Below are positions 1 to 57,662 of a stretch of DNA of 64,000 nucleotides, piece by piece. The notes under the pieces are model-generated. The model saw only the letters and a program-made list of their open reading frames with translations, was not told the DNA's origin and did not search any database. The translations under genes and the position numbers were made by a program. Every line of letters starts with the position of its first letter. Positions within the stretch are counted from its first letter, which is position 1. The stretch comes from Rutstroemia sp. NJR-2017a BVV2 (Eukaryota > Ascomycota > Leotiomycetes > Helotiales > Rutstroemiaceae), in assembly GCA_002946415.1 (NCBI GenBank), contig NJPS01000001.1, positions 1 through 64,000 of the forward strand, read 5' to 3'.

Positions 1-2651
1 TCCTCATAATCGCCACCAGGACTTAGGGAACCCTCCCTTTGTTGTAGCTCAGCTACTTGTTCTATTCGTTGACGTTTTGCTTCACGAATCTCTTCATTTC
101 GTGGAGTCGGTACAGGAACTCGGGGAGGATCTGCCTCTACATCAGATAAGTATTGGAAATCGAGTTTATCCTGTAATATATGTAGGCGGATCTGGTATTT
201 ATTCTCAATTTCATCATCCAGGAGCTCATTAACTGGAAGAATATTAGATATCTCCTCAAATAAGCTCTCCTTTTTAAGCCTTTCTTGCTTATCATCAGAT
301 CGAAGTTGGCAAGAAAGGAGGACTAAAGAGCAAATAGTTGAAGGATTAAGATGTCCTCGGCGATAACCACAAATATCACGACCAATATTAAAAACCCGCT
401 CTACTGAGGTTCCAGCTAATGGAATACAAAGCATATCTCGTGCCATTCGTGCAAGATTAGGATATAAGTGTTCATTTTGCTTCCAGTATTGTAGAGGCAA
501 ATCATCGATGGGAACTGGAAAAGTCAGTGATTAGTATAAAGATTAGTATAGGATATGTACTTGTTTGAAGATAACGATCCACTTCTGACAAATTCTGAGA
601 AGATCCACTAGTTCCATTACGTCTAGCTGCATTGAAAAACAATGTCATACCCCTGAGATTCGGATGAGAAGTCCGCGAAGACTGTGGACTAGTAGAATCT
701 TCGTAATGTACTTGAAAGTAAGTAGTAAATTGTTCTCGAAATGTAGTCGCCCAATTAGTATCGGTATAAGTAACCCAGGAGTATCTCTCTCGAAAACAAG
801 ACAGCTTAAAAGTAGGATTCAGAATTGTAGCGAAAACACAAAGAGAATCATCCTGGAGAAATATCTTCCTATAATATTCGAAAAGCTTATCCATTGCTTT
901 TCGAATACCTTCTTTGAGGGTTTGGGCCCATAGTTCAGCTCTTGCAGATAATCGTCGACTCGATTCTTCAAGATGTTCAAAAAGCTCTTCGTAGATAGGA
1001 AGAATATAGGAGGTAGTAGAGTCCTCTTGACCGATAGATTCAGTCATGAAATTAAAAAGCCGAGTAATATCCACAATAACTCCACATTGATCCCACTCTT
1101 GACGAGTTAAACGAAATTTCTGGGCATGGGCAGCAACCTCGGTATACCTATCAATTGCAGAGTATAGGCATAATGCTCGAACAAGTATTAGGAATATTGA
1201 ATTCCATCGTGTTGCAACATCTTGAATTAAACGTAAGGGTTTCTTTCCAGACGGAACTTCCTGATATTGTTCGAACATTTCTCGACATACAGAACTACTA
1301 TTTACCCAAATAGTGAGTTTTCGCAGCTGCTAAAGCGATTAGTATAGAGATTAGTATAAAACCAGAAGGGTACTTACTTTAGCTAAAGTATATGGAAGAC
1401 CTTGATTCCTGATCTGCTCTAACTGAAGCTCTTGTTGCTCCTCCCAATTCCTCTGAAGTTCGTCATTGGTGGGGTTAAGACGGATTGTAAGGAGAAGTTG
1501 CTTGAGTGCTAATTGGATAACATGTGCTACACAAGGAATATGTAAAATAGTACCAAGTCCCAGGTTTTGCTCTGAAATAACACTATTAACTGCAGCAAGC
1601 AAAGTAATATTGTTCGACGCATTATCAGTAGTAATCGAATGGACCTGATCAACGATATTGAACCTCCTGAGGATATCTAGTAAGACTCTACCTAGATGTT
1701 GTCCAGTATGAGACTCAAAAATAGGTTCAAACCCAATAAGAATACACCGGTAGTTCCATTCCTTATCGATAAAACAGCAGTTAATACCCATAAAAGAATC
1801 CCTCATGGGACTCGACCAACAGTCCAATATAATCGCACATTTTGAGCCAGAAACAAGATCTTGAAGAGCAGTAGCTTCGAAGAAGCTAACTTGGTCTGCT
1901 AAGAGATTATGTATAGTAGTTGCAGAGGGAAGCTGGAAAAGTGGATTCTGCAAGGAACATAACTTTCTCCACTCCGGATCTTCCACCGAGCGAAAGGAGG
2001 TCTTGAGAGAAACAATCGTCCGAAGAACATGAAGGTTGAACTCCTCTTGTGTAACTACCTTTGGTGGTGGTCTAGCCTAGATCAATATATTAGGATAAGA
2101 TCTTTATACTAATCTTCATACTAATCACAAGACCTTACCTGGAAAGAAAGAGTAGATTGAGATTCCCGTGAAGTCTTTTTACATGAACTTGAGCTGGAAT
2201 GGTTGCTTAAGGATGTAGTACCATTGTGTTTCCCGTTGTGATTTGGATGGCGAATAAGTGTTTCACATGACCGACAAACAGCTACAGGTCGTCCAGTAGC
2301 AATATGAGCAGCCAAGTCGAATTTATCCCAGATACTTGCAGTTCTTTTGGTATCCCATCCGATCCTTTTAACAAGATCAGTATCAGAAGTCTTATTATCT
2401 TTGTACTATGTTGTTTGTTTCCACCAGCGTAAGAAAACAGCCTTTCGAGAAACCACAAATAAATAACAATCCTTAGATCTACCAATCTTAGGAAGGTTAG
2501 GGGGTAGATCATTATCATCATCAGATATCTCATATTGAGTAGGAGAGTTAGGAACTGTACTTGTCTCAACGAAGGGATCGGATCCTAGAACTGATATAGG
2601 CATTTCAGTGAAGGAGGAGGAAGCCATTTGAGAGAAGGATGAAGAAGCCAT
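1..2651 (-). CDS. hAT transposase with BED zinc finger, one in-frame TAG, 3' end outside window
   Basis: This is a cut-and-paste transposase. Exons by hand: 2139-2651, 1378-2076, 561-1326, <1-514; all junctions keep phase. The N-terminus is a Ser-rich tail (MASSSFSQ). A BED-type finger follows, with SIWDKF and a CRSC...H pattern. The RNase H-like core shows LDCWSS (first Asp), TTDNASNN (second Asp), CVAHVIQLAL and TRWNSIFLIL. The last exon has the hAT dimerisation region, with LAGTSVERVFNIGRD. A TAG at 2406-2408 lies between the N-terminal tail and the BED finger; CAG-to-TAG or TGG-to-TAG would explain it, and no Met follows before the finger. A 5'UTR intron is likely upstream, around 2698-2755. 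Apart from the TAG the visible frame is intact, so inactivation looks recent or the stop is a single lesion. Confidence 0.9.
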
Positions 2652-2851
2652 TTGAGTGAAGAATAAAGAAGTTATTTGAGAGTAGAGTAGATGAGTTTCT
2701 CGGTCGATTAGTATAAAGATTAGTATAATAGTGAGATAACTCCAGTACTTATACTCAAATTTCTATCTGCTTAATGAGAAAACTTAAAGAGAATCTCATG
2801 TGTGTTTATCATACGAAACTCGCCAGAAGCAAAATCAATCCGCCCAAATAC

Positions 2852-3884
2852 CTATGGAATAGCATCTACTTTAGCCGTCAACAAATCATATGCCTCCTTG
2901 AACAGCTCCATATTTCGCTCCTTTGGAACAAAAAAGCCATGCTTGCGGTAGTTGTAATTCTCCGGATACCAGTCAACAGGACCAGGCAAATCTACCCAAT
3001 CAAGATCATTGCGCTCAGTATCCCACATATTTATGTTACGCCACATAGCAAGCTCATTTTTCGTAAAGAACCGCTGTGGTGGACGAATATCATAATATTT
3101 GCTAAGATTGAGGATTAGTATAAAGATTAGTATAGAAACAATCACGATAAACATATCCAGAAGTGTAAGAGATATATGGACCCAGCGATCGGAGAAAATC
3201 CATACCACCCAAGTTTAATTGGTCGAGTTTCTTTTGAAGAGAAGACCGAACATTCTTCTAAGTTCTTTGCCAAGCACGGAAGACAAGGAGAGCTTGCTTC
3301 TGACACTCAATCAGTATCATACTAATCTTCATACTAATCAGTTTTGACTTACATCTACTCTCTGTCGTAGAATTTGCACCTCTTGAATAGCAAGATCACC
3401 AGTTGCTTGAATAACAACTTCTCCATTACGTGCATCATCCTCTCGCTACAATTTCTCTTGGATAAGCTCATCCTCTTCTTCACAATCTTCAAAATTGGAG
3501 TTATTATCATCGAACTGTGCAAATTCACCACCCTCTTCTCCATAGCCCAACTGTCTAGCAATTACAGAAGCATGGATACCCTGAACCTTGCTGTACTACT
3601 AGTTAGTATACTAATCTCTATACTAATCAGAAATGAACTTACCGTTTATGGGTCACCTTATCTTTAACCGCCTCTTTGATCCTGGCTTTGGCAGCATCAT
3701 CACCTTGAATCCATTCATCGGTTTGGCGCATTTGATTCAAGCGATAAGTAATTGCAGCTTGATCACTTGCTTTGGCCTTCTCAATTCGAACCTCATCTTC
3801 ACTCTTGCCAACTAGGCGTACACGTGCTTTCGCAGTGTAAGGATTTTGCGAGAGTTCATTTTGAGCTTTGCGCTTAGGAGGCAT
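2852..3884 (-). CDS. unrecognised gene inside the hAT element, broken by TAG codons
   Basis: I do not recognise this protein. Exons by hand: 3643-3884, 3353-3590, 3153-3299, 2852-3101, with a probable 5'UTR intron just upstream (GTAAGT start, motif at 3897-3918). It begins MPPKRKAQNELSQNP with a basic N-terminus. Exon 2 has an acidic stretch (EDCEEEDELIQEKL), and the C-terminal exon is rich in Trp, Tyr and Pro (WVDLPGPVDWYPENYNYRK), ending ..VDAIP. In-frame TAG codons occur at 3446-3448 and 3258-3260. The junction from exon 3 to exon 4 is one base out of phase in my model, so either a donor is mis-placed or there is a frameshift. Every intron carries the same tandem motif as the neighbouring transposase and histone genes. 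No signal peptide or membrane segment is visible. Confidence 0.55.
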
Positions 3885-4263
3885 TTTGCTTCAAGAGATT
3901 AGTATAAGGATTAGTATAATGTAGAGAGTTACTTACACAGAGGAAAATCGTACTAAGTGGTTGGTTGTATGTAAAAGGTAGGGATCAAAGGTAAGTTGTA
4001 AGAAGTTAAAAATTTAGTTGCATAAAATTTAGGTTATATCCATATGGTAGTAACCTTAAAATTCGCTTAAGGGTCTTGCCCTGTACATGTATATTCACTA
4101 TACTCGTTTAAGTAAATTTCCACTTTTTTCTCTTCTCATTTTTACAACTTACCACCAATACGACAACTTCACGCGCAATTTACTCTATTCACAGTCTAAA
4201 CTTATACTTCTCAAGTAAGTAAATCCATATTTTCAATTATTATTACTAATAATATCAAGAACT

Positions 4264-4800
4264 ATGGCTACTACACGATCTTTCGGTAGCTACCGTAATG
4301 GTGTTAAATCACCGCACAAAGCATCCAAAAAATCCAAAGCATCCAAAGCACCTGCTGCAAGGAAGTCCTATCGATTCAAGCCAGGAAGTAAGTTATCTGA
4401 TTAGTATGAAGATTAGTATAACGATCTAATGTTTTGAAGCTGTCGCACTTCGTGAAATCAGAAAATTTCAAGCTTCCTTCCACCTTTTGATCCCGAAGGT
4501 ACCTTTCGGTCGTCTCATTCGCGAGATCACATATGTCAATTTGAATAGACTATAGATGCGATTCACACAGGAAGCTCTAGCTATTCTTCAAGAAGCTGCA
4601 GAGGGAATGTTGGTCGATGAGTTCTATAGTAAGTATTTTTTGTTTCTGTTCTATACTAATCTTTATACTAATCAATCCCAGTGACAAATCTCTGTGCAAT
4701 TCACGCCAAACGTGTTACTATTCAGCAGAAAGATATGCAGTTGGTTCAAGCACTTCGTAGGGCTATGACTGGATATTCTTTCCCTGGGAGGCTTGATTGA
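4264..4800 (+). CDS. histone H3 / CenH3-like histone-fold gene inside the hAT element
   Basis: Exons 4264-4387, 4440-4628 and 4682-4800 join in phase to about 142 residues. A basic tail (Lys, Ser and Ala rich, no ARTKQTARKS-type H3 tail) leads into [43 protein letters not shown] and [20 protein letters not shown], which match H3 alphaN to alpha3 in order. Loop 1, between REI and RF, is about two residues longer than in canonical H3; that is a CenH3 trait, but one trait does not prove CenH3. A TAG at 4553-4555 sits in this loop, where CAG (Gln) is the simplest ancestor. The C-terminus runs on past the usual H3 end ([16 protein letters not shown]). As it stands the product would stop in loop 1. 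The gene lies about 420 bp from the hAT right end, on the strand opposite to the other two genes. Confidence 0.85.
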
Positions 4801-4999
4801 CTGATTGAAAGGAGGATTAAGTAGATAGATAATGATTGAATGAATGGTTTGGTTCGGAGCATGGATTTTCAATGGGTAATAGTTAAAACATAATGAATAA
4901 TACCTTTATAACCTTCACAAAGATATCTAAATTATGAATGATTTGTGAATTGAAATATGATTAGTATAAAGATTAGTATACAGGGTACGATTTCTAAAT

Positions 5000-5218
5000 A
5001 TAACAACACATTCTCCACTATCCGTCAACTATCCACGGATTCACGGATATCCGCCGGATTTCTAACAATCCGCCGGATTTCAGGAGCTACTGCGGATATC
5101 CGCGGATTATCCGCAGTAGTACCACTTAGAAATCGCCAAAATCCGCTCCGGTCCGGATTAATCCGCGGATCCCCTTGAACCTAAGTGGTAGTACCACGGA
5201 GCTCCGTTTGCGCAGCCT
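5000..5218. repeat. hAT right terminal region with subterminal CGGAT/ATCCG repeats and hairpins
   Basis: About 220 bp hold more than ten CGGAT or ATCCG units, in both orientations, as expected of subterminal transposase-binding repeats in hAT elements such as Ac. Positions 5087-5119 form a near-perfect inverted repeat (CTACTGCGGATA against TATCCGCAGTAG). A second, larger inverted repeat pairs TACCACTTAG near 5119-5128 with CTAAGTGGTA near 5181-5190. The end is ..GTTTGCGCAGCCT. The reverse complement of the whole region is present at 20718-20920. Confidence 0.85.
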
Positions 5219-8200
5219 AAGGAAAGGGCACTTAGTGCCCAAGCACCCTCTAAAGGGAAGGGCTCTAAGGGCAAGGCTAAAAAGCCTAAAGGAGCTTGCT
5301 TTAATTGCGGCCAGCAGGGTCACTTTAAAGCCGAATGCCCAGAATCAGAGGGCAAGAAGGAAAGCAAGAAGTCCAGTACTGGGCCATTGGCTACCCCTAG
5401 CGGTGGGGGAGGCCTATCTCCTAAGCAGACTCAAGCTAAAATGGCTGAAATCAGCTGGATATCAACTATAGCTAAAGGGCAATCAGGCCCTAAAGTGCTA
5501 GGATATAGTGATCAAGAGCCTATATGGATAGTGGACTCAGGCTGCTCCAGATATATAACTTATACTAAATAGAAGTTCGACAACTATATAGAGCTGGACG
5601 AGCCTATTGACGTCACTACGGCCTCAGGGGCTACAATACAGGCTATAGGCTAGGGGATAGTTAGGCTACAAGCTCTTATCCAGAGCCAAATTAGGCTAGT
5701 TAGGCTACTGGATATACTATATATTCCAGAGCTAGCTGGCTCCCTTATTTCAGTACTATAGCTACAGAATAAGGACTTAACAATCCAGACTACTATAGGC
5801 CCAAGGAGGGAGCTTCTAATCAAGTTCCAGGATACTATAGTAAACCTAGCCTGTAGGGTAGACCAAGTATATATCCTTCAAGGGCCTACTTTAGAAGCAG
5901 ATATAAGTATACTGAAAATAACGACTTAGGAGCCTAATAGTCCTGAAGCAATAAGATAGTATCGAAGATTAGGCTATCTAAGCCCAGGCTCAATTCGGAA
6001 CCTGCACAAGATGACTATAGGCCTAAAGGAGCCTATAAAGGGGCTAAAAGAGCCCTACGAAGTATATATCACTTCTAAATCAGTAAGGGTACTAAACAGG
6101 AAAACTTTAGAGCATAGTACTAAGTTTTTGGAAAAAGTGTTTAGCGACTTTTGGGGGCCTTATAGTACCCCTGGGCTAGCTGGAGAGCTCTATATACTCA
6201 CTTTTACTGATGATTATACCCGGAAATTATAGGTTTATTTTACTAAAGAAAGGAAGGAGCTTAGGGAGCTGTTCCAGGTATTCAGAGCCCAAGTAGAAGC
6301 TGAAACTAGCTTGAAAATCAAGTAGGTTAGGTATAATAATACCCCGGAATATAGAGCCTTAGAGAAGGCTATAGCGACTACAGAAGTACAATTTGAGTTC
6401 ACTACCCCCTATACGCCCGAACAGAATAAAGTATCTAAGAGGCTAAACAGGAGCCTAATTACAGTAACTAGGTCTATACTATAAGATACTCAGCTATCTA
6501 CTAAATTCTGAGTTGAGGCCGCAAATACAGCCTGTTATTTAAAAAACAGAACTCTTATAAGCCTAGAGGGTATAACCCCGGAGGAGGCCTACAGTAGCAA
6601 GAAGCTGTATATAGGGCACTTAAGGGTATTTGGGTATATTATATATACCTATATCCCTAAAGAGAGATACTATAAGCTAGACCCAAATACTAAGAAAATG
6701 GTCCTTATAGGCTATATACCTATAGCTAGACAGTATAGGCTATACAACCTAGTAGCTAATAAGGTGGTAATAGCTATAGTACCTATATTCGACGAAAGCA
6801 AATATATTAGGCTATCCAAACCTAATTCGATCCCTGAGCTAGAAACATAAGTTGAGCCTAAGCTCCCTGAAGGAGATATAATTGTAGTAGATACCAGTTA
6901 CTTATATACCTCCGGGAACCCTGAAGTTGAAAGCTTTGAAGCAGGGGACCCAGAAAGCTCAAAAAGCCTTAAAGCAGCAGAACCTAAGGGCTCTGATAGC
7001 TCGGAATTAGAAGAGCTTAGTAGCTCAGAATCGGAAGACTCTGAGGCCTCTGAGTTAGGGGGGAATAGTATAGCCGAGAGTACTGAAACCTAGGGGACTC
7101 AGAGCCCGGGATTAAAGTATACCCTCAGGGTTAGAAAGCCTGTAAATCATACTTTGTTAGCGGCCACTAAAGTGAATATACCCTGGAACTATACTGAAGC
7201 AGTTAATAACCCAATATAGGGAGCCTATTGGAAGGATGCTATTAAGGATGAATTAGCCAAATTACAGGTCCTAAGTACCTAGGAATATACTATACTCCCA
7301 GAAGGAAAGAAGCCTATAGATACTAAGTAGGTATTCACAATCAAATATACCTTTATAGGTCTAATCAACTGCTTTAAGGCTAGGCTAGTTGCATAAGGCT
7401 TTAGCTAGGTATCCGGAGATAACTTCCTAGAAACCTTTAGCCTTACAATCAGATAAGAGAGCTTAAGGGTTTTATTAGCTATAAAGATATATAAGGATCT
7501 AGAAATCAAGTAAGTAGATATAGTTAGCATCTACCTAAGGGCTAAACTATATATTATTATATATACCAAGATGTTTCTAGGCCTAGAAGGATATCCAGAA
7601 AGAAAGGTACTATAGTTAAAAGCACCCTTATATAGACTTAAACAGTTAGATAGAGAATAGTATATTGAAGTCTATAGTAGGCTTAAGAAGCTAGGCTTCC
7701 AGTCCCTATATAGCAATTCTAGTATATTCAGGAACCCTGAATCAGGAATGCTAATAGACCTATATATCGATGATATACTTATATTGGGTTCTATATTATA
7801 GAAGATATAGAGAGTAATCAAGGGTATTTCAAGCCTATAGCAAATAAAGGATCTAGGGGATATAGATACAATTTTAGACTTACAAGTAGTCCGGAACCGA
7901 AAGACTAGGATACTAAAACTAACCCAAGGAACTTATATTAGGGACCTAATCGCTAGGTTCAAGCTCGAGGTAGCTAAGCCTATAAACCTCTCTATAGCTA
8001 ATAGGAATAGTCTAACTAAGGAAAAGGAGAACAAGCTCTAGACAGATCAAGCTTTATATCAAAGCACTATAGGGGGCCTACTATAGTATACTAAGGGTAC
8101 TAGGCTAGATATTACTTATATCATAGAGCAGCTAAGCCAGTACTATAGTATATCTAAAGTTAAGTACTGGAATATAGCCCTTAGGGTACTTAGATACCTA

Positions 8201-9050
8201 AGCGGTATACTAGGATATAGTTTGTAATATAGGTATATAGGTAGCTAGAAGCCTATACTACAGAACTACTGCGATACTGACTATATAGAAGATACAACCG
8301 ATAGATAGTTAGTTTCAGGGTATCTATATCTATTATTAGGTAGACCAGTTACCTGGAATTTAGTTAAATAGCACTATATAAGCCTGTTGACTACTGAAGC
8401 TGAATATATAGCTCTATCCGAAGCTAGTAAACAGGGATAGTGGTTGCAGACTCTAATTAAGGAGGTGGATAGGCTTTAGTATCTAGGAGACTACTTAGAG
8501 GTACCTATCCTTAGTGATAACTAGAGCTATATTGCCCTAGCTAAGGACTTTATAGCCTATAGTAGAACAAAGTATATAGAGGTTCGGTACCACTATATTA
8601 GGGACCTTATAACTTATAGTAAGGCCACTATAGTATACTGCTCAACTAAGAATATACTAGCCGATATACTAACTAAGCCTCTACTATTTAGAGCCTTCAA
8701 GAGATATATTCAGGAACTAATAAACTTAGAATAAGAAGCTAGAGAGGGTATCTATAGTAGTCAGGAAGGGGACTATTGAGTAAGGTAGCAAAATAGGATT
8801 GGTAAATCTATAGTATTAAGCTTATAAAGTCTATAGGATTTCGGCTTTTAGATATATATCGGTCTTCGGTACTAAAGCAGGGCCTATAGGTATTAAGAGT
8901 TATTCTAAGTTGTCTACTTATATAAAGAGTCCTTTCTATTATAGATAAGTCTATAGAACAGTTAAATCAAGTACAAATTATCTCTACTTTTAAATTTATT
9001 TGAGCCTATAGACACTATATTATTAGTACTATCCCGATCAACCTCCAAGA
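5219..9050 (+). mobile_element. Ty1/copia retrotransposon, copy 1, 5' part cut off by the hAT insertion
   Basis: A degenerate gag-pol reads through stops on the plus strand. In order: zinc knuckle CFNCGQQGHFKAEC (5297-5338), protease IVDSGCSRYIT (about 5529-5562), GAG-pre-integrase and integrase (FWGPYS, TFTDDYTRK, TPEQNKV; 5950-6480), reverse transcriptase (KDAIKDELAKLQ at 7230, LYIDDILILG near 7755-7795) and RNase H (TTEAEYIALSEASKQG near 8395). This integrase-before-RT order is the copia order. I count about 25 TAG, 6 TAA and 1 TGA in frame, nearly all at positions where related proteins have Gln or Trp. The 3' LTR is 8774-9050. The 5' LTR and most of gag lie left of the hAT, outside the window. 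Confidence 0.93.
8774..9050 (+). repeat. copia copy 1, 3' LTR (277 bp)
   Basis: The LTR starts TATTGAGTAAGGTAGC directly after a purine tract (AGGAAGGGGAC) and ends ..ACCTCCAAGA. It has the same length as the copies at 10791 and 15362, and the differences are mostly transitions. It contains a run of ATATATCGGTCTTCGGTAC. Confidence 0.88.
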
Positions 9051-11081: not shown

Positions 11082-14000
11082 AAATACTGTAAGCTCCGGA
11101 TTTAACTATATTCAGTTATTCGAATAGTCTATTTACAAGCTAATATTCAACTATAATAGAGGATTATAGTATTGAGAAACCTAGAATCGCTAAGTTTATA
11201 GAGTCTAACTACAGGTCCTAGAGTATTCAGATCAGAACCTTATTAAGAGGGTTAGATCTGTAGAAGGTAGTTAAAACTGGGCTTAAGGATATTATAGCTA
11301 AGGGAGCTATAGGGGTATCCGAGAAGCCTAAGGAGGAGATAGATACTCCCAAGGACCCTAAATTAGTAGCTAAGGATATTAAGATAAGCTTCTTTATTAT
11401 GGACTTATATAGTAAGGAGGTACTAGATTATATATTACTATATAATAGTACTGATATCTAATAGAAAGTACTTAAGACCTTATATAGGCCTCTGGATCTA
11501 TAGCAACTAAGTACTAAGATTCGAGTATTTATAGGCTATAAGATACCTAAAAGAAGTACTAAAGAGGTAACTAAGGTAGTTAATTATCTTAGTACTTTAT
11601 AGTCAGAAATAGGCTTTATCGAGTCTAAAAAACAGTTTTCGAATATACTTAAACTAGCAACTCTATATAAGGTAGTTAGGGAGCTAGACTATAGGTTTAA
11701 GTTTCTAATTCTATAGCTAGAGATAAGAGATCAAATTCTGAATTTTGAGAATATAGTAGCTAAACTCGCTAAGTAGGAATACCGATTAGGCCCAAAAGAG
11801 AGTATTAAGGAAAGGGTATTTAGTATCTAAATATCCTTTAAAGAGAAGAGTTCCAAAAGCAAAGCTAAGAAGCCTAAAGGAACTTACTTTAATTGTAGCT
11901 AATAGAGTTACTTTAAAACCGAATACTCAGAATCAGAAGATAAGAAGGAAAGCAAAAAGTTCAGTATTAGACTATTAGCTACCTCTAGTAGTAGAGGAGA
12001 TCTATCTCCTAAATAGACTTAAGCCAAAATAACTGAAATCAACTGAATATCAACTATAACTAAAGGGCAATTAGGCCCTAAAGTACTAGAATATAATGAT
12101 TAAGAACCTATATAGATAGTGGACTTAGGCTACTCTAGGTATATAACTTATACTAAATAGAAGTTCGATAACTATATAAAGCTGGATAAGCTTATTGATA
12201 TCACTATAGTCTCAAGGGCTATAATATAGGCTATAGGTTAGAGAATAGTTAGGCTACAAGCTCTTGTCTAAAACCAAATTAAGCTAGTTAGGCTATTAGA
12301 TATACTATATATTCCAGAACTAGCTAACTCCCTTATTTCAGTATTATAACTATAAAATAAAGACTTAATAATCTAGATTACTATAGGTCTAAGGAGAGAG
12401 CTTCTAATCAAGTTCCAGGGTACTATAGTAGACCTAGTCTATAAGGTAGGCCAAGTATATATTCTTCAAGGATCTACTTTAGAAGTAGATATAAATATAC
12501 TGAAAGTAACAACTTAGGAGTCTAATAGTCCTAAAGCAATAAGATAGTATCGAAGATTAGGTTATTTAAACCCAGACTTAATTCGGAATCTGTATAAGAT
12601 AACTATAGACCTAAAGGAGTCTATAAAGAAGCTAAAAGAGTTCTATAAGGTATATATTATTTCTAAATCAGTAAAGGTACTAAATAAGAAGATTTTAGAA
12701 TATAGTACTAAGTTCTTGGAAAGAGTATTTAGCGACTTTTGGGGGCCTTATAGTACCTCTAGGCTAGCTGGAGAGCTCTATATACTTATTTTTACTAACG
12801 ATTATATCCGGAAATCATAGGTTTATTTTATTAAAGAAAGAAAGGAGCTTAGGAAGTTATTTCAGGTATTTAGAGTCCGAATAGAAACTGAAACTAATTT
12901 GAAAATCAAGTAGGTTAGGTATAATAATATTCCGGAATATAGAGCTTTAGAGAAGATTATAGTAACTATAGAGATATAATTTGAGTTTACTATCCTTTAT
13001 ATATCTAAATAGAATAGGATATCTGAGAAGCTAAATAGGAGCCTAATTATAGTAGCTAGATCTATATTATAGGATACTTAGCTATCTACTAAATTCTGGG
13101 CTAAGACTGTAAATATAGTTTATTATTTAAGGAATAGAACTTCTATAGGTCTAAAGGGTATAACCCTGGAAAAGGCTTATAGTAGTAAGAAGTTATATAT
13201 AGGGTACTTAAGGGTATTTGGATATATTATATATACCTATATCTCTAAAGAGAGGTACTATAAGCTGGACCCAAATACTAAGAAAATAGTTCTTATAAAC
13301 TATATATTTACAACTAAATAGTATAGATTATACGATTCAGTAACTAATAAGGTAGTAATAACTATAATACCTATATTCGACGAAAGTAAATATATTAAGC
13401 TACCCAAACCTAATTCGACCCTTAAACCAGAAATACAAATTGAGTCTAAGCTCCCTGAAGGAGATATGATTATAGTGGATATCAGTTATTTATATATTTC
13501 CAGGAACCCTGAAGTTGAAAGCTTTGAAGTAGAGGATCCAGAAAACTCAAAAAGCCCTAAAGTAGCAGAGCCTGAGGGCTTTGATAACTCGGAATTAGAA
13601 GAGTTTAGTAGCTCAGAATCAGAAGACTCTAAGGCCCTTAAGTTAGAGAGGAATAGTATAGCTAAAAGTATTGAAACTTAAGGAACTCAGAGTCTAGGAT
13701 TAAAGTATATCTTTAAAGTTAGAAAGCCTATAAATTATACTTTATTAGTAGCTACTAAAGTGAATATATCCTGGAACTATACTGAAGCAGTTAATAACCC
13801 AGTATAGGGAGTCTATTGGAGAGATACTATTAAAGATGAATTAGCCAAATTACAGGTCCTAGGTATCTAGGAATATACTATACTCCTAGAAGGAAAGAAG
13901 CCTATAGATACTAAGTAGATATTTATAATCAAATATACCTTTATAGGCCTAATCGACCACTTTAAGGTTAGGCTAGTTATATAAGGCTTTAGCTAGGTAC

Positions 14001-20515: not shown

Positions 20516-20717
20516 CTGTGGGTTGACTGCTCAACCGTGGTATAAGATCACTTCCAAAAGAGTGATCTGATACTTGGTTGATAAAGTCTGATTCTCTAAA
20601 AGATAGGGGAAGAGCAGGGTGGCTAAATACCCAGCTTTGCGTACAACTACGGATCTAGCTAATTCTACGAATGCCCTCATTTCAGCCCTATTCCGTATAT
20701 TCAATTAGCCCTTATAT

Positions 20718-21206
20718 AGGCTGCGCAAACGGAGCTCCGTAGTACTACCACTTAGGTTCAAGGGGATCCGCGGATTAATCCGTACCGGAGCGGATTTTGG
20801 CGATTTCTAAATAGTACTACTACGGATAATCCACAGATATCTGCAGTGGCTCCTGAAATCCGGCGGGTATCTGTAAATCCGACGGATTATTTTAAATAAG
20901 TAGAGATTTAAGATCTAAAAAAAGTATATCCTCAAAATTTAAATATTTTCAGCCTCAAATTCAAGGTTTTATACTAACCTTTATACTAATTATAAAAGTT
21001 ATACAGCAATTTATATATTTATATACAAGTTATATATCTTTTATATAAACGGATATCCGCCAGATAATCCGCAGATTATCCGTTTTAGGCCGGGGCGGAT
21101 TGTTTCCTAAACGGAGCTCCAACGGAGCACAAAAGTAGGGGGGGCTCCTCCGCGGAGCGGAGCGGATCAGGATATCCGGACGGAGCGGATTATTTGTGCG
21201 CAGCCT
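20718..21206. mobile_element. 489-bp non-autonomous hAT (MITE) related to the element at 1-5218
   Basis: It begins AGGCTGCGCAAACGGAGCTC, which with the next 200 bp matches the reverse complement of the hAT right end (5000-5218). It ends GGATTATTTGTGCGCAGCCT, so the terminal inverted repeat is AGGCTGCGCA. The interior holds a copy of the tandem motif at 20970-20991 (TATACTAACCTTTATACTAA) and more CGGAT subterminal units, but no coding sequence. Flanking CCTTATAT and CCTTGTAT may be an 8-bp target duplication with one mismatch, though one lies two bases off the inferred end. Confidence 0.82.
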
Positions 21207-21465
21207 ACCCTTGTATTGCCCTTCCGTAGTCCATGCCCCATTTAATCTCGCTTGACCAACAAATCCTCTGAGCCTAAGGTCCCTACAGTCATATGTTCGA
21301 CGACTTGAAACAAATATAGTGCACAGTAGCTTTGTACTTAACGGAATATTATTATTCCGGGTATATATATAGTAAGCTTACTACTACGCAATCTTGACGA
21401 AATTTAACATACTGATATATAATCTAACTCTCTTACCGTGCATAATTCCTACAAGACCTGCTACA

Positions 21466-46881: not shown

Positions 46882-49849
46882 AGAAGTAATTCTAGTAAGC
46901 AAAAGGCAGGTTCAGATTTCGGGTGGGTTCATGTAAAATACAATATAACTATACCAAATTTGCTCTATTATTCCGCGATAAATAACCGCTATTCGGTCGA
47001 GATCCGGCGCGCGGATTGATCGCTTCTTCTAAATAAGGAGAAAGAAGATTGCTATTCGTTCTAACTATAATCTCTATTTATTCCAGTCTCTATAGTAGTT
47101 CTATATTATATTGTAAAGATATATCTTGATACTTTAATATCTCTATTTATAGTTATATCTTTTCTATATTGTGAAATATATGATAAGATATATATATACC
47201 TCTTTTTAACTTAATATAGTTCACTCTATAGTATAAGGGACTGGTTCCTATCTAGATTAAGAAATATATCGACCTTTTATCTCTCTTTTGAAGATCTGAA
47301 GTTGTAGTACTAGAATTATCTTCTAGATCTCCTTCTATATATACTATTAGGATATATATACTCTTATTTCGATCTACTTACAATAGTAATCTATATAGAG
47401 AACTTCTAATCTAAATATCGATTCTATTTATTCAAATAAGAAATTCTATTTATAAATAGAAAGATCCTATAAAAAGATAAAAAAGAAAAAGAGAGATCAA
47501 GGAAGTTTTTATTAATAAAGATAACTCAATAATTATTAAGATATATTATATTATAGAAAACTCTTCTCAAAAATAGAATACTAGTATATCTCTAAACTGA
47601 ATATAGAAATAAAGATTATATTATATCAACTTATATTACTAGGAAGATATCAATTAATCAGGATTAAGTTCCTAAAATAAGTAGTTGATTCTAAAAAGAA
47701 AATACTATATTTGAGATATTTTCTTATATAGAATACCTAAATTAGAAGAGATCCTTTTTAGATACTATTTATTTTGAGAGATCTAAGTATTTAGAAAGTT
47801 ATAGATTTTGGTTAATATAAAGAATATATACTATTCGGATATTATTAGGAATAAATTATATTTATATTTCAATTCTATATAACTTATTATATTGCTCTAA
47901 TAGATTAGAAAGGATTTTTGGATTAGTTTATATTAAGTTAGAATTATTTTATTTATCTTTTTCCAATTTAATCTTTTCCTAAACAAATATTATTATAAGT
48001 TTTGATTAGTATAGAGATCAATCTGATAACTTAGATAATTTATTTATTTTATTACTTAAAATAGTTATTATATCTTCAAGCCTAAATACTATAAATAATA
48101 TAACTAGATTCGAAGAAATATTTCTTTAGAGAGAAACTTTACTTCAAACCAAAACTATATTAGATATTCCACAAATATCTACTAACTTAGATATAGTAGA
48201 TATAGACTAGAAATATAATAAGAATAATATAATCTTTCTAGATCAACAAAATAAAGAAGCAACTAGGATTTATAAAAAGAGAAAATATAAAAACAAAGAA
48301 ATCTCTAATACTAATTATAAGTTATTATTAGTAGATTCTAGTTCTAATAGAATATATTATCATTAATCTGATTCTAACTCTAGAATATATAAGATAGATC
48401 TAATTCAGTTAATAGATATCTTCAAGAAAGTAATCTTATATTAATCTATATTCTTTATTAGTACTATTAGTATTAAGATATTTGATAATCGCAATATTAT
48501 TTTATTCTTGGAAGAAATAAATAAAGTTAAAGAAGAATATTAACTTTTAGAAATCGAAATATATATTAGAATCTATTATTTCTTAGAAAAGGATATTATC
48601 AAATAAATTAAATTGATATCAGAATATAATTTGTTCTTTTATAACTATAATCAATTTAAATATACTTTATTGAAGAAATTCTATTAGATTGATAAATAGT
48701 AATAGATATTCAATTATAAATTCCTAAAGATCTATATTCAAATTAGAATTAAAAAGAACTATAATAAAGATAAATCGGATTTAGATATCTATCTATATAA
48801 ATATAACTAAATAATAAAAATCCTTATTATAAAGAAGACTTTTTCCAATTATAATATAAACTAATATTTCTTTATAGATTTACTTAAATAATTAGATAAA
48901 CAAATAGTAACTAAATATAAAGTGGATTTAGATAAATTTAATTTAGTTTATTATAATAAACTCTTTTAATTTATATAGTTCAATATAGATATAGAGAGAA
49001 CTATTATATTACTTTATAACTAGGATAAAAAGATAGAAAAAAAGATAATTAAGTTTATAAAGAATTATATAAAGAAGTTTCTTATATATCTACTTAGATT
49101 ACCAAAATCCTCAAATATAGCTATTATAGAAGATCTTATATAAATATTCGAAAAACTATTAGTTAGAATATTTAATCTAGCTAAGAAGAAAAATATTAAC
49201 TATTTCCTAAATAATTGTTTTAAATATTATTATATCGAAAATATTTCTAATTTCAACTAATATTATAATAAAGATATAATAGACTTCGAAATAAATATAT
49301 TCTCTATATATACAAAATATTATTATTACTATAATTTATCTCTATATATCAAAAGCTATTTTCAAAGTAAGTATTTTAAATTTAAAAAATATATCGAAAA
49401 AGGCTAATTATATTATAATATTATAGAAATATAGTTAATTAAATTAGCTAGTTAGAATAAGTTATAATAGATTATTTAGATTAAGAATATCTTTTATTCG
49501 AAAATAGTAGAAATAAAGATTATAAATAGTAACTAAGAATAAATATAATTATAAAAAGATTAGTATATTTTAATATTAATATCCTTTATAGATTTCAATA
49601 AACTAAAAAAAGTTAATAATATCAAAATCAATATTAGTAATTAATATAACAATAATAGTAATTATCTAAATACTAATAATAACTATTTTATCTAAAACAA
49701 ATATATATTCGCTACTATAGTATCTATTTATATTAGTTAATCAAATAATAGATAACTATAACAAAGTTATAATATAAAATAGATATCTACAAAGAATATT
49801 ATTAAATTTAAGAAATAGATAATAATTTTAGAAAATCTTAATAGATATA
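46882..49849 (+). mobile_element. AT-rich RIP-destroyed retroelement relic (gag-like)
   Basis: Composition drops sharply to AT-rich within about 150 bp of the PDR stop codon. From about 48000 to 49800 one plus-strand frame reads long Lys/Asn/Ile-rich stretches through many stops. These include a possible zinc-knuckle remnant near 49320-49375 with Cys converted to Tyr (YYYYNLSLYIKSYF). It ends exactly where the Gypsy LTR begins, so it was probably interrupted by that insertion. The family is not identified. Confidence 0.5.
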
Positions 49850-50399
49850 TATTATAATATATCTAAATAAGAGTTTAAGGATTTTAGGCTTAGAGAATAA
49901 CTAACTATTATTTGATAAAGTCGAACTATTATATAAAGATTATATAATAAAGTAGAGTTTAGATATCTATATCTATAATATAAAGATAGGAAAAAGATAT
50001 TTATAATTATTAGTATATCTTTATAAGGAATAATATTATAGAAATAAAGTATCTAGAAATAGATAAATATTAAAGTAATTAATAATACTTTTAGTAGAAT
50101 CTTAAATAGAGATTATTTGATATCCTAATAATCTTAATAATCCTAGTATTACTAGAACTAGTAGAACTAATAAGATAATAGAAAACAAAGATCTATATAA
50201 CTAGATAGTTTTCTTTAATATATAGAACTTTATATTTAATAATAATTACTATTTATTTATTTACTATTATAATTACAATCAATTCTCTATATAACTATTA
50301 TCAATAATAAATCTATAATAGTACTATTAATTATTATAATCTCTAGTACTCGAGATTCTAATTACTTTTATATAATTTAGAAGATAAATATTTATAATA
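49850..50399 (+). repeat. Gypsy A, 5' LTR (550 bp)
   Basis: It starts TATTATAATATATCTAAATA and ends AGATAAATATTTATAATA. It has the same length as its partner at 56268 and as the inverted copy at 57663. Confidence 0.87.
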
Positions 50400-50499
50400 C
50401 TTTAAATACTTTTATTACTTTATATACCGAATTAATATAATTTCAAATAATATTATAATAGTTAGATCTATAAACTAATTACTAGCTCTATTACCTATT

Positions 50500-53400
50500 A
50501 TAAATATAACTATATCTTTACTAGATTATAATAGTAATATTACTATAACTTATAATAATACTAATAATAAGAAAAGTGATAATAATAATAATAAACCAAA
50601 AAAGTTCAGATTTTAGAAAACTTTGAAGATTATATTAATAGATAAATATAATAGTAATAAAAGGAAATTGAAAACCTTTTTTTTATAATTAAGAATATAT
50701 TTCAGATTCAATACTGATAAATTCGATATCTAAAATACTAAAAATCTCTAAATTATCTTTTATCTAAAAGATAAAATAACTAAATAAATTGAATTTTTTC
50801 TATTTAACTATTTCAAGAATAGTTATAATCTTGTTATAATAATAACAATTACTATAGTTATATTTATAAATTATAAAGAATTTCGTAAAGAGATTAAATA
50901 AGTATTTAAAGATATCGATATTATAAGAACTATAGAATAATAACTTTTTAATTTATAATAAACTAGATTTATAATTAACTATATAACAGAATTCCGAAAA
51001 TATAGAAATCAAATTAACTAAGAAATAATAATATTACTTAGTTATTATATAAAAGAACTAAAGAGAAATATCAAATTTGAACTATTTTAGAAAGATTTAA
51101 TTGATAATATAAATAATCTAATTAAAGAAACTATTTATATTGATAATAGAGATTATAAATTTCAAAGAGAAATATATTTCAGTAGTATAAACTAATATTC
51201 TCAATAATATTAATAAAACAAGAAAAGATCAAAGTTTTCTAAAAAATAATATATTAGAGAAAAGATTTATAATAACTTTATATAACTAGATATAATAAGT
51301 TTAAAAAACAACTTTTCCTAAAATAAACAAAATTATTAATAAAAGTAGAAACTTTATTTTGAATATAGATTTCTAAAATATCAAATAAAAGATTATCGAA
51401 AGAGATCTTAAAAAGTAAAAACTAAGTAAACTAATTAGAAAAAAAAGAAATAGTTTAAATCTATAATAGAATAAAATAGTAACTAAACTATATCTAAATA
51501 CTAATTAAGTATAATAAATAGTTATCAGATTATTCAGAAAACGAATTATATATAACTAATATAAATTACTTACTATAAAGACTTTTATCTAATTTATAAA
51601 ATAGATAAAAAGAGAATAAACTAGTATTTAAAAAAATCTAATAATAAGAAAACTATTATTCAAGATAAATCTTCAAAATAGGAAAAAATATAATTTCTAA
51701 AAAGAATTAGTTATTATAGAACTAGATTTTAGAAATAAAAGGAATTTATAGATTTACTAAATAATAATAGATTCTAGAATAATATTCGAAATATCTGAGA
51801 TCAACTAATTATAAATTATTACTACAAATTAGAACTTGAGATTAGCTTTACTAAGATATAATAAGAGATTTGAATCTATAAAGAATTTAGAGAATTCTAG
51901 TAATATAATTTACTAAATAACGAAGAGATTTAGGAAGTTATTTATTAATATAGTTATAAGAACTAATAAAATATATTATTATAGAAATTAACTTAATTAT
52001 AAAAAGTAATATTATAGATCTTCAGATATAAAATATCTACTAAATATATTGATATTCTTATTAGATAAATCTTCAGAATAAAGACCAAAACGAACTTAAA
52101 TATAGTTTGGGAAAATATAATCAATATCTAGAAAAGATTCTTTAGTTTTATAAAAAATAGTAAACTTAAAATTATAAATCGAAACTAGAAAAGAATTAAT
52201 TAGAAATAACTTACCGAAAATATAAATAAAAGACTAATTAGAGAACTTAAAGCTATTTTAGAATTAAGATAGATTCTTTACAAAATATATATAAATAGAT
52301 ATTTACTTTAAGTAATAATAAACTTGGAAGTAATAGAAAATTTTATAATATTAGAAACTATAATATCAGCAAAATTATAAACTCTCGAAAAACCAGTTCT
52401 ATATAGATTTTACCTTGTTAATAAACAATTAGCTAAAAAAGATAAATTAGTTTAGTACGAAATATAAGAATTTGAGATATAGCTAAGATAATATTCTAAA
52501 TAGATAAAAATAGATTTGATCTTATTAAAAGAATATCAACTAATTTTGGGAATATTATAACTAAAGAACTATAACCTATATATCAACTAAGTTGTAATAA
52601 CTATATAGTATAATAAATATAAATATAAGATAAAGTTTATATAAAGTTTTGCAAGACTAATACTTAATCAGAAACTGAAAGTAATATATTCATCGAGATT
52701 AGATATCTTAGTTCAAGATTCTCTACTAAAAGATATACTAATATAGTACTAGAAATATATCGAGATTTTTAAGAAAAGGTTTTATAAGGATATCTTATCA
52801 AAGTACCAGTTTTAGAATTATAAAATAAAATTGGAAAAAGAAAAGAGATTATTATTTTTACCAATTATATTACTATTAGAAGAGAAACTTAGAATACTTC
52901 AAAAATATATTATAGAAAATTTAGTAAAAAAATTTATTAAGAAATTCTATTTATCTATAAATATACTAATCTTCTTTATATCTAAACTCTATACTATAAA
53001 ATTAAGATTAGTTATCGATTATCGAAAACTGAATATTATTATTATTAAAAACTAATATATATTATTATTAGTTAGTAAACTACAAAATCGAATTAGGAAA
53101 ACTAAATATTTTATTAAATTAAATCAATATATAGAATTCAATTTAATCCAAATCAAAGAAGAAAATAAATAAAAAATTGTATTTTATATATAATATAGAT
53201 ATTACAAATACTAAGTTATATTCTTCGGGTTTACTAATATATTTATAATATATATATATTTAGTTAACAACTTATTAAGAAAATATTTTAATAACTACTA
53301 TATAATATATTTAGATAATATTTTAATTTTTATCAAGATTCTTGAAGAATATATCAAAATTATATAAGAGATATTATAAGTTCTAATAGATATAGATATC

Positions 53401-55720
53401 TTATTTAAATTTTCGAAATACGAATTCTATATTACTAGAATCGAATTTTTAGAATATATTATTAAGATTTACAAATTCGAAATAAATCTAGGAAAAGTAA
53501 AAGAAGTTTTGAAGTAGATATAGTTTACTATAGTTAAAGAAATATAATTATTCTTAAAATTTATAAACTTCTATAGATAATTTATTAAGAATTATTCGAA
53601 AATTGCAATACTATTTATAAAACTAACTAAGAAGGATTATAAATATAAATAAAGTAGTATAATATAAAAGGTATTTGAGATTCTTAAATAAATCTTTATA
53701 TAGATATTAGTTTTTATTATCTTCGATCTAGAACTACTAATTACTATTAAGATAAATATATCGAATTATATATTAGATATAATCCTTAATTAGTTAGATA
53801 AAGATAAGAAACTATAATCAATAATATATTATTTAAAAAAGCTTTAATTAGCTAAACTGAACTATAAAATTTATAATAAAGAGTTTCTAATAATTGTTAA
53901 TATTTTCAGAAAATAGAAAGTTTATTTCAAAAAATCTAAATATATAATCTAGATTTATTTAGATTATAAGAATTTAATATATTTTATAATAACTAAAGTT
54001 CTAAATAGATAATAGATATAATAAATAGAAATACTAATTATATATAATTTCAAAATACTATATATCAAAAGAAACGAAAATATTAGAAATAATATATTTA
54101 GTAGAAAACCGGAATATCTAGAAAATAAGATATATAAATTATATATTATATTTTACTAAGATAGAGATTTGTTAATATTCAATTTAGTCTAATTAACTAT
54201 AATAATATTACTTTGTAATAATTATTTAGAAAAGCAAATATAAAGATATTATAGAAATAATTCTATTATAAAATAAATACTAGAATAATTAGATAAAAGA
54301 TTTATAATCAAAGATAGTATTATATATTTCTATAAGAAGATATATATTTCTTCGATCTTGGTCAAATAGTTTATTTAGGAATAATATAAGTTACTAATTT
54401 ATAAATATTAAAGAATTATAAAGATATTTATAAGAATTAAAGTAAACTTATATTTTTCACAAATAAAAAAGATAATTAAGAAAATTATCGGAAACTATAA
54501 TATCTATATATAAAATAAAATCTTATAATATACTTTATATAGTTAGCTTAAAACTCCAGATATATCTTCTTAGTTATAGAAGTCTATTATATAGAACTTT
54601 ATAATTAAATTACTATCTTCGAAGAACCTAATAATAGAAATAATATATAATTCTATTTTAGTTATAGTAGATCGACTAACCAAGTTTAGATATATAGTTC
54701 TATATAAAGAAAGTAATATAATTGAAAACTTAGTTTATATATTTTTATAAACAATAGTTAATATATATAATATACTAGAAGAAATTATTTTGGATCGAAA
54801 TAAGTTCTTTATATCAAAGTTTTGACAAATATTTATAATATTATTTGAGATTAAAAGAAAGTTTTCAATAATATTCTATCTATAAATAGATAGTTAAATA
54901 GAATAATTAAATCAAACTATAAAACAATATTTATATTATTATATAAATTATCAATAGAATAATTAAATAAAACTATTACTATTGATATAATTTATATATA
55001 ATATATCTAAAGTTGCAATAATAAATATATTACTAATATATATTAACTTTGGGTTTGAACCAAAGATATATAATATCTAATTTCCGAATATAGTAAACTT
55101 AGATATTGGTATAATAAAGACAGAAAATTTAAAGAATTTATATAAATAACTATTATTTGATATCAAGTTTATTATATAACGAATAATATAATATTATAAC
55201 TAGAAGTATAATATAAAACCAATATTTAAGAAAAAAGATAAAGTTTATCTCTTTAAATAAAATATTAATACAAAAAGATTAAATAATAAACTAGATTATA
55301 AGAAATTAGGATTCTTCAAAATCAGTAAAGTAGTTAAACTAATTAATTATTACTTAAAGTTACTACAAATAATAAATATATATTTAATATTTTATATTTT
55401 ATTTCTTGAATTAGTACTATTAAGAATATCAAATATACCTTATACCGAAATTGAACTAGTTAATTCAAATACCAAATATAAAGTTAAAGAGATATTAGAT
55501 CAAAAATATATTAAAGAAAAGTTTTATTACTTAATCAAATAAGAAAGATATTTATATTCGGAAAATATATAGAAACTAATTAAGAACTTAAACTATTTAT
55601 AAGATTTGGAGAAATTCTATCTAAGGAATCTTTAACTTTCAATTAAATAGCTAGTTCAGAATTATTTATTAAAGAAAGCTTAAAAATCGAAAAGTTAATC
55701 TCGAAGAAATTAGATATCTA
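50500..55720 (+). pseudogene. Gypsy A gag-pol remnant
   Basis: Reading through stops, gag lies at about 50530-51500. Reverse transcriptase includes LRLVIDYRKLN (53005-53037, inside a 74-codon surviving ORF at 52831-53055) and YLDNILIF (53308-53331, from YLDDILIF with the second Asp lost). RNase H and tether follow to about 54000. The integrase has VDRLTKFRY near 54667, and a chromodomain-like end has KEILDQKYIKEKFYYLIK near 55490. Dozens of TAG/TAA stops and Cys-to-Tyr changes make it dead. Confidence 0.85.
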
Positions 55721-56267
55721 AGGAATTTATTTAATTTATTTAACCTATTCCTTTTCCAATTTTTTTTTCTTTTCAAATTCCTCTAGTATATCAATTATAT
55801 ATAGATTATATTATAATATTTTTCTAGTTTTTTCTTTCAAAATCTTTTATTATTTCCTTAAATATATATAATATATAAAAGCTTTTTACTTCTATTAAAT
55901 AATTATTTCTTTTTTAATTTCGAATTAGGTTTCTTCTTAACAAATACTTTTCTATAAAGATACTGAATTATTATATATATTATAAGAAGATCTTTTAGTA
56001 CTTTTTATATATTCTCTATATTAATCGAAATCAAGAAGAATATAATATTCGAGATTCTTCGATATATAACAAAAATACTTTATAGATATTATTTTTCCTT
56101 TTTTTTTAAAATGAAGATATATATTATAACAACTTTTTGTAGATTTGGAAATATATTTAGATATAATAAAGAAAAGAAAGAAAACAAAATATTTATTATA
56201 AATCTAAATAGATACTTTATATTATTATAGTAAGTATCAGAATAATACTAAATTAAAAAAAGGATAA

Positions 56268-56817
56268 TATTATAATATATCTAAATAGGAATTTAAAGAT
56301 TTTAGATTTAGAGAATAACTAACTACTATTTAGTAAAATCGAATTATTATATAGAAATTATATAATAAAATAAAGTTTAGATATCTATATCTATAATATA
56401 AAAATAGAAAAAAGATATTTATAATTATCGATATAGTTTTATAAAAAACAGTATTATAAGAATAAGATATCTAAAAATAGATAAATATTAGAATAATCAA
56501 TAATACTTTTAGTAAAACTTTAAATAAGAATTACCTAATATTCTAGTAGTTTTAGTAGTCTTAGTACTACTAGAACTAATAGAACTAATAAGATAATAGA
56601 AAACAAAAATCTATATAATTAGATAGTTTTTCTTAATATATAGAGCTTTATACTTAATAATAATTACTACTTATTTACTTACTATTATAATTACAATTAA
56701 TTCTCTATATAACTATTATCAATAATAAACTTATAATAGTATTATTAGTTATCATGATCTCTAATATTTAAAATCCTAACCACTTCTATATAACTTAGAA
56801 GATAAGTATTTATAATA
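56268..56817 (+). repeat. Gypsy A, 3' LTR (550 bp)
   Basis: It pairs with 49850-50399 over its whole length. It is the inner arm of the large inverted repeat with 57663-58212. Confidence 0.87.
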
Positions 56818-57662
56818 TTATAAAAGTTTAAGAAAAATTGAATATCTTTTATAATATTAGGATATTACTATTTTTATATAATAATAATCTTTTCTAGATC
56901 TATTTCAATATTTTTAATAAAGATAATAAATTTCGAATACTTTATTTATTTGATATCGAATTTATATTTCTTTATATTAGTTTAGAAACTAGTATCTTAG
57001 AGATATTATAAAACTAACTTTATATATATTATATATTCTAATTTATTTTTAAAGTAAATCAAGATAATATCTAAATAAATATTATAGAATATATTTAGAT
57101 AATCGAAAAATATATTATTTATATTATATTAATAGATTATAAAACTATTTATTAATCTAAAAGATATAACTTTATATTTATATATTTTATAATATATTTG
57201 AAAGATAGTATATTTTTCTAAAATAGAATCTATTTAAATATAATAAAAGATCTTTATATTTATAATACTAATAAATATTTTGTTAATTAAAGATAATAGA
57301 TATTAATCTTTATAAATAAAGATATTAAGTATTCGGAAATCGATATAAAAATATAAATTTTTTATAAATTTTTTAATAAAGAGAATAAAGATTATAAATA
57401 ATATTTAACTAAACTTAATAAAATCTTTTAATAGATTTTCTATAAGATATTTTTTAATAATCTCAAGTTTTTCAAATAATATCTTATAAAATAAATTATA
57501 TTTCAATATTTTCTTATTATTATTTTTTAAATAGATTTTATAATTATAAATATAATAAGATAATAAAATATCGAATTCAGTTTTAAAGAAAATATAAATA
57601 TAGTTAATATATTTATTAGAAATTAATAACTTGATAATATCTATTTATAATAATAAATATAT
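56818..57662. other. 845-bp AT-rich spacer between the two inverted Gypsy elements
   Basis: No LTR or coding similarity to the flanking elements is visible, nor is any gene. It may be remains of the older repeat at 46.9-49.8 kb into which both elements inserted. Confidence 0.45.

Follow-up and report, generated by a model that had tools for sequence, protein, structure and literature searches.

Why should a transposon carry a histone gene, and is such a gene part of the element or host sequence caught up in it? The question is raised by the first 64,000 nucleotides (hereafter the window) of contig C1 from the helotialean fungus Rutstroemia sp. NJR-2017a BVV2. The window opens inside a hAT DNA transposon and contains, at positions 4264-4800 of the forward strand, a three-exon gene for a protein with the histone H3 fold (hereafter H3L). 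H3-carrying hATs have so far been read as the capture of housekeeping genes, occurring separately in Pyrenophora and in the Mycosphaerellaceae. The explanation that we favor for the locus as a whole, with a probability of roughly 45%, is a hAT of the Pyrenophora kind in which H3L and a central gene are working parts of the element.

The H3L gene is composed of the following features:

4264..4387, + strand: H3L exon 1, encoding the N-terminal tail (from the splice model and NCBI model P0001)
4388..4439, + strand: H3L intron 1, GTAAGT...GAAG, with a 21-bp double motif (described below) at 4399-4419
4440..4628, + strand: H3L exon 2, encoding alphaN to alpha2, with an in-frame TAG at 4553-4555
4629..4681, + strand: H3L intron 2, GTAAGT...CCAG, with the double motif at 4653-4673; P0030 has an intron at this site
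4682..4800, + strand: H3L exon 3, encoding alpha3 and a GYSFPG tail, with stop codon TGA

Once spliced, H3L spans 144 codons, encoding 143 residues (the TAG counted as one) and a stop. With an X at the TAG, its product has the Histone family as sole Pfam match (E-value 2.3e-29, 102.5 bits against a cut-off of 26.4, in a search admitting E-values up to 0.01), and it matches 176 distinct PDB sequences at E <= 0.001, the best of them (2.3e-31) being histone H3.1/H3.2. Intron 2 is supported by a metagenomic relative, P0030, the translation of which includes an intron at the identical position. Compared with canonical H3, the window H3L has R4, Y9 or N9 (depending on the alignment mode), E103, M106 and an additional C-terminal tail, and a canonical histone H3 was ruled out because K4 and K9 are missing from the tail and the LFEDTNL helix end is altered (E103, M106). 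Loop 1 has 10 residues versus 8 in host H3, and 419 bp separate the stop codon from the right tip of the element at 5219. These results bear out an earlier note on this DNA, which had described a three-exon H3-fold gene about 420 bp from the hAT right end, without the canonical modified N-terminus and with a loop 1 some two residues longer than in H3. The top database match is the NCBI annotation of the gene itself, P0001 ('histone protein', Rutstroemia sp. NJR-2017a BVV2). Seven residues around the TAG are missing from this model, which seems to treat the 21 bp as a pseudo-intron; the public annotation therefore conceals a broken gene.

Two further genes precede H3L in the element, both on the strand opposite to it:

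1..2651, - strand: hAT transposase, exons 2651-2139, 2076-1378, 1329-561 and 514 to the contig start, with one in-frame TAG
2771..3884, - strand: central gene (gene 2), exons 3884-3643, 3590-3353, 3305-3157 and 3101-2771, with relatives P0186 and P0187

The transposase, as read, comprises 831 residues in four exons with one TAG. Its dimerization region (Dimer_Tnp_hAT, PF05699) scores 52.7 bits in Pfam against a cut-off of 21.4, and its RNase-H part falls below the cut-off (17.2 versus 27); a Pfam search of seven single-exon frames likewise placed hAT dimerization above and hAT RNase-H below the cut-off, and two further sub-threshold matches of these frames were taken as chance. Gene 2 contains three in-frame TAGs followed by a TAA, and the donor of its intron 3 reads AT; one acceptor, one donor and the end of the model were set after comparison with relatives. 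In a protein search using a preliminary gene 2 model plus 195 transposase residues as query, 16 of 5896 candidates reached E <= 0.001. The top two matches to gene 2 are P0186 from Monilinia laxa (EYC80_006413, 318 aa, 51% identity) and P0187 from Botrytis aclada (EAE96_001784, 320 aa, 47% identity), which are 61% identical to each other. Neither matched a Pfam family, with only one sub-threshold match, and an AlphaFold model of P0186 with P0187 (mean pLDDT 43.5) was unusable for fold search. No relative of gene 2 was found in viral contigs, nor anywhere in the Rutstroemia genome outside this element. The in-frame TAGs total five (one in the transposase, three in gene 2 and one in H3L): the copy in the window is broken in all three genes, in agreement with the earlier reading of a probably dead copy from the single TAG in H3L, which we confirmed.

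The boundaries of the element can be placed as follows:

5021..5219, no strand: right terminus of the hAT, tip TAGGCTGCGCAAACGG when read inward (tip pattern search)
5220..5227, no strand: target-site duplication AGGAAAGG, with its partner on contig C39, bases 275-268

Since the window begins where C1 begins, the left end of the element is absent from it. We joined the 8 bases following the right tip to the tip itself and searched the 43.4 Mb genome with one mismatch allowed, which returned a single match, exact, on C39. There, outside the window, the left end occupies bases 267-1, at which point the contig ends. The element has terminal inverted repeats, with tips TAGGCTGCGCA at 5219 and on C39, and the 8-bp duplication AGGAAAGG flanks both ends of the insertion. 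The joined flanks, taken as a 700-base empty site, align across the junction with each of the seven Copia copies examined; identity is 73-85% for L082-L086 and, along a shorter alignment, 66% for L087 and L088. A search of positions 1-5219 with the tip patterns gave no match besides the right tip. Based on the shared duplication, the Copia empty site and the lack of an internal tip, the transposase, the central gene and H3L are all parts of a single insertion that interrupts a Copia element. Both ends and their common duplication thus uphold the location of the H3-fold gene within the hAT; a left end between the transposase and H3L, named at the outset as the observation that would speak against it, was looked for and no such tip was found. 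We regard this anatomy of the element as close to certain. The element measures at least 267 + 5219 = 5486 bp, with a gap in the assembly between C39 and C1. Six contigs (C12, C44, C45, C59, C66 and C68) carry parts of the right end, 98-100% identical, at or close to their own ends. Copia sequence is found twice in the window, at 5228-9000, where it is interrupted by the hAT, and at 11808-12148.

The layout has a published precedent. The first reported case of an H3L-carrying hAT, from the wheat pathogen Pyrenophora tritici-repentis, was described in 2013 as a ~5.6-kb element with a transposase, a central ORF and H3L, present in 10 near-identical long and 16 short copies and represented by ESTs, the H3L of which is reported to match neither H3 nor CenH3 (Manning et al., 2013; PMC3538342). 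The same report describes a chimera made of the 5' part of the central ORF and the 3' part of the transposase, which would imply the same gene order and strand as in the Rutstroemia element. A second group of hATs, bearing copies of H3, was described in six Mycosphaerellaceae, including Pseudocercospora fijiensis (Dhillon et al., 2019; PMC6710886). According to that description, these elements span 9.5 kb, have 8-bp duplications and carry one or two intronless H3 copies, with the extra H3 copies all inactivated by RIP; the authors regard the Pyrenophora case as a recent event that took place independently, and report no similarity between the Mycosphaerellaceae and Pyrenophora hAT sequences. 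Both reports (PMC3538342, PMC6710886) contradict the earlier note, which knew of no described fungal hAT that encodes an H3-fold protein.

Compared with the Pyrenophora element by its published description (layout and size), the Rutstroemia element has the same transposase, central ORF and H3-like gene between terminal repeats, in at least 5.49 kb versus ~5.6 kb. It differs in its setting, Pyrenophora being a Dothideomycete with 26 copies and ESTs and Rutstroemia a Leotiomycete with one assembled, broken copy. With the Mycosphaerellaceae hATs it shares 8-bp duplications and H3-like cargo, the extra copies there being RIP-inactivated; unlike them, with their intronless H3 and no central ORF in their description, it carries a distinct H3L with introns. 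By its layout, the Rutstroemia element is a Leotiomycete member of the Pyrenophora kind of H3L hAT. No protein named Pyrenophora occurs among the best 120 + 120 H3L matches or the 16 gene 2 matches, many of which are nameless, and no H3-carrying hAT outside the Dothideomycetes was found in the open-licence literature, as judged by titles and the starts of abstracts among the matches listed. A more distant parallel is the bracovirus protein CpBV-H4, reported as a viral core histone that enters host nucleosomes and has a functional tail (PMC5423620): both are core histones on foreign elements, CpBV-H4 being an H4 of a wasp virus that acts in another host. What is new here is the adjacency of H3L and gene 2 by locus tag in two genera, the E103/M106/GYxxxG signature, the absence of K9 in seven of eight tails and the placing of a sequence motif in introns.

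The H3L signature emerged from two protein searches, in which 7993 and 7997 proteins were scored and the best 120 listed in each. Relatives of H3L were first chosen by eye, and a scan of the 185 listed proteins then returned the same set. Among the matches listed, they come from Xylogone, Clarireedia jacksonii, Botrytis aclada, Stromatinia cepivora, Botryotinia calthae, Monilinia laxa and Talaromyces marneffei, together with the metagenomic P0030, and their clusters hold one sequence each, except for P0030 (2) and P0135 (4). E103 and M106 occur together in 8 of the 185 listed proteins (P0001 included) and neither occurs alone in any; P0030 stands outside this count, its intron being read through at that point. 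The GYxxxG tail, which was no criterion in choosing the set, is present in six of these eight proteins and in P0030, and in none of the 176 others listed. In the eight aligned H3L (P0030 not included), the nucleosome-fold residues H113, K122 and D123 are kept throughout, and K9 is missing from seven of the eight tails under two alignment modes. K4 is lost in 7/8 or 4/8, depending on the alignment mode, and given this loss and the general divergence of the tail, the absence of K9 may be drift. P0135 from Talaromyces marneffei (146 aa) combines E103 and M106 with a retained K4 and K9 and has no GYxxxG tail; judging from its sequence, this protein may represent a host variant of H3 near the point from which H3L arose.

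The identity of the window H3L is 47-51% to other H3L, 73% to P0030 and 49% to a CenH3. Overall identity being no higher than to CenH3, the H3L family rests on the signature residues and the tail. The AlphaFold model of the Botrytis H3L shows the H3 helices at pLDDT 81-89 over residues 61-130, with a low-confidence tail (mean pLDDT 70.7, pTM 0.49), and the listed PDB matches to this model are nucleosome entries (best E-value 7.1e-08, TM-score ~0.46 by query length). The host H3 and CenH3-like genes have no introns at KPG/T and EF[E/Y]/M, where those of H3L lie, and H3L is consequently neither a retrocopy nor a copy of present host genes. A captured intronless housekeeping H3 of the Mycosphaerellaceae type was also considered and set aside, as H3L has two introns, the second of them also in P0030.

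These observations bear on passive transduplication, whereby the hAT caught a fragment of a host H3 gene that is now drifting and of no use to the element. The Pyrenophora and Mycosphaerellaceae elements have been interpreted in this way (PMC3538342, PMC6710886), and the interpretation agrees with the TAG of the window copy, with its divergent tail and with an H3L identity no higher than that to CenH3. Separate recent captures would not, however, yield two residues found jointly in 8/185 proteins and a GYxxxG tail confined to the set and P0030, nor do they fit introns that host H3 and CenH3-like genes lack or the fact that H3L and gene 2 are neighbors by tag in two other genera. We consider transduplication unlikely.

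A different origin was suggested by the loop 1 length, from which the earlier note had proposed an affinity to CenH3; H3L might then be a CenH3 paralogue conferring centromere-like behavior on the element. Like fungal CenH3 (CENP-A), H3L has the common H3 fold, a divergent tail and, in the window copy, a longer loop 1, besides the 49% identity to a CenH3 given above. It is unlike CenH3 in its E103, M106 and GYSFPG tail, and in its position in a phylogeny with H3 and CenH3. In the full tree (29 rows, all columns), nine H3L rows form one branch (97/95) versus 20 H3 and CenH3 rows, apart from the three CenH3 rows. A shortened tree of 76 columns and 26 rows, from which the signature and tail columns were removed and P0011, P0083 and P0149 dropped, does not have H3L as one clade in its best tree, and holding the H3L rows together gives an AU p of 0.129 and is thus not rejected. 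The phylogeny proposed at the outset accordingly separates H3L from CenH3 when all columns are used and leaves the relation undecided when shortened, and the single origin of H3L rests on the signature and tail, since the clade is lost from the best tree without those columns. Loop 1 ranges from 7 to 10 residues in the 5/8 H3L relatives counted, so its length is not a mark of CenH3, and the host has a separate CenH3-like gene, L002, named by its sequence. The affinity to CenH3 is hence not upheld, and we give a CenH3 paralogue hardly any weight.

Outside Rutstroemia, H3L and gene 2 are found as neighbors. The Monilinia laxa H3L relative P0133 (EYC80_006414) bears the locus tag next to that of P0186 (EYC80_006413), and the Botrytis aclada relative P0043 (EAE96_001783) the tag next to that of P0187 (EAE96_001784); from these tags and the equal listed contig sizes, the two genes appear to be adjacent in both species. 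No transposase adjoins by tag among the other 14 matches of the gene 2 search, the query of which included 195 transposase residues, repeats being often left unannotated. Such pairs could mean that H3L and gene 2 are a Leotiomycete host pair, an H3 variant and its partner, which the hAT acquired later in Rutstroemia, in keeping with their adjacency in Monilinia laxa and Botrytis aclada without an adjacent transposase seen with the 195 residues searched. Yet H3L occurs in few species among the matches listed, a patchy distribution for a host gene; in Rutstroemia, no gene 2 was found outside this element, and no H3L outside it and the remnants on C23 and C29; and the Pyrenophora element, as described, shares the three-gene layout (PMC3538342). 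A host pair is in our view improbable.

The element further contains a 21-bp double motif, which occurs at eleven positions:

529..549, + strand: double motif GATTAGTATNNNGATTAGTAT, transposase intron 3
1337..1357, + strand: double motif, transposase intron 2
2106..2126, - strand: double motif, transposase intron 1
2706..2726, + strand: double motif, upstream of the transposase
3113..3133, + strand: double motif, gene 2 intron 3
3319..3339, - strand: double motif, gene 2 intron 2
3608..3628, - strand: double motif, gene 2 intron 1
3897..3917, + strand: double motif, 5' of gene 2, perhaps in a leader intron
4399..4419, + strand: double motif, H3L intron 1
4653..4673, - strand: double motif, H3L intron 2
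4959..4979, + strand: double motif, downstream of H3L, 240 bp before the right tip

The genome contains 16 exact matches to the double motif, 11 of them in this element, versus 0.012 expected from the base composition of the window and none for a reversed-motif control; the remaining matches lie in a C23 copy (2), a short C29 copy (1) and a stretch duplicated between C31 and C35 (2). Each of the eight introns has exactly one double motif and the exons none, with three more in non-coding gaps. Because it is sense in four introns and antisense in the other four, the motif is not just a splice branch site, which was ruled out as the reason for its presence. In P0030, the intron carried into the translation gives YTNPYTNQ, which is what the double motif would encode, and the placing of the motif therefore seems older than this genome. 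The full double motif is found in two of the ten complete short copies described below, half of it in five and none in three, so that it is not strictly needed for movement (8/10 without the full motif). Other hATs have subterminal sites, to which the double motif can be likened, and we tentatively propose, at somewhat less than even odds, that the transposase or the central protein binds to it. The C31 and C35 matches (L049, C31:480416; L050, C35:7127) lie in an identical 3021-base stretch on opposite strands, without a tip pattern and with a hAT left tip ~7 kb away on both contigs.

Taken together, the shared signature and tail, introns absent from host genes, the intronic motif and the adjacency in two genera favor a long-kept module over passive capture. 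H3L and gene 2 are thus probably an old conserved module of the element and not recently captured host cargo, and we think that H3L serves a function in this hAT lineage, by a mode of action that we infer. In the mechanism we propose, H3L would pair with host H4 and take the place of H3 in nucleosomes; most H3L tails would be unable to carry H3K9 methylation, and chromatin containing H3L would then withstand transposon silencing by the H3K9 pathway of these fungi. The double motif, in introns and near the ends, would be the address for H3L, delivered there by the transposase or the central protein. That H3L lets the element escape silencing is plausible from its sequence, and the missing K9 in 7/8 tails is compatible with such an escape; resistance specifically to H3K9 silencing through H3L is possible, with the odds against it. 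An altered tail and C-terminus on an intact fold would also suit a poison histone that loosens host silencing everywhere instead of marking the element, as would the reported presence of H3L in 26 Pyrenophora copies with ESTs (PMC3538342). The spread of the motif across the element suggests local action instead, and we hold a poison histone to be quite improbable.

The most far-reaching form of the working-part reading, which we put forward as a rather doubtful proposal, is a hAT lineage that brings its own chromatin kit: a partner protein, 21-bp intronic address sites and an H3 on which K9 methylation is impossible. The module would be old and common to Dothideomycetes and Leotiomycetes. If true, the element would package itself in chromatin that host H3K9 silencing cannot mark, with its address sites in introns, free of coding constraint. 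A case in another fungal class, with the same three genes, a shared H3L signature and the pairs of H3L and central gene in Botrytis and Monilinia, suggests a lineage that keeps a histone it needs, and makes testable the question of whether a transposon builds its own nucleosomes to avoid H3K9 silencing.

In the Rutstroemia genome, a search with positions 4000-5180 gave 48 matches, ten of them to a 33-base inverted stretch and most others to no more than the last 180 bases. The ten complete short copies of the family measure 491-900 bp, and their duplications comprise seven perfect 8-bp pairs, one with 7/8 identical bases, one mismatched and one with its left side lost at a contig start. H3L sequence is found in the genome only in the window copy and in two remnants of the same hAT family: the C23 copy (900 bp) retains the last 20 H3L codons (QLVQALRLAMTGYSIPGRLH and the stop), and the C29 copy, 68% identical and with a G+C content of 12%, retains most of exon 2 together with exon 3 and the right end. 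Across all family loci examined, an identical right-end duplication exists for 16 of the 27 at left ends, and three such pairs join contig ends ~200 bases inside the element (C15/C66, C19/C44 and C40/C12). Nine contigs (C12, C15, C19, C40, C44, C45, C59, C66 and C68) begin or end ~200 bases within the hAT family; with contigs breaking inside the element, the assembly hides further copies and the number of long copies cannot be counted. A 491-bp non-autonomous copy of the family lies in the window at 20717-21207, with a near-perfect duplication (CCCTTATA/CCCTTGTA).

Strong RIP of the window copy was ruled out by a TpA/ApT of 0.80-0.91 and a second index of 1.08-1.30 over the element. The adjoining Copia (5228-9000) has a RIP-like dinucleotide shift (TpA/ApT 1.71, second index 0.69). 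All five in-frame stops of the element are TAG, a type that RIP can create. The C29 copy, at 12% G+C, looks worn by RIP, which would mean that the hAT family has not altogether escaped from it. The far end of the window (48001-64000) is a long block of 15-21% G+C, as often seen in RIP-worn repeats.
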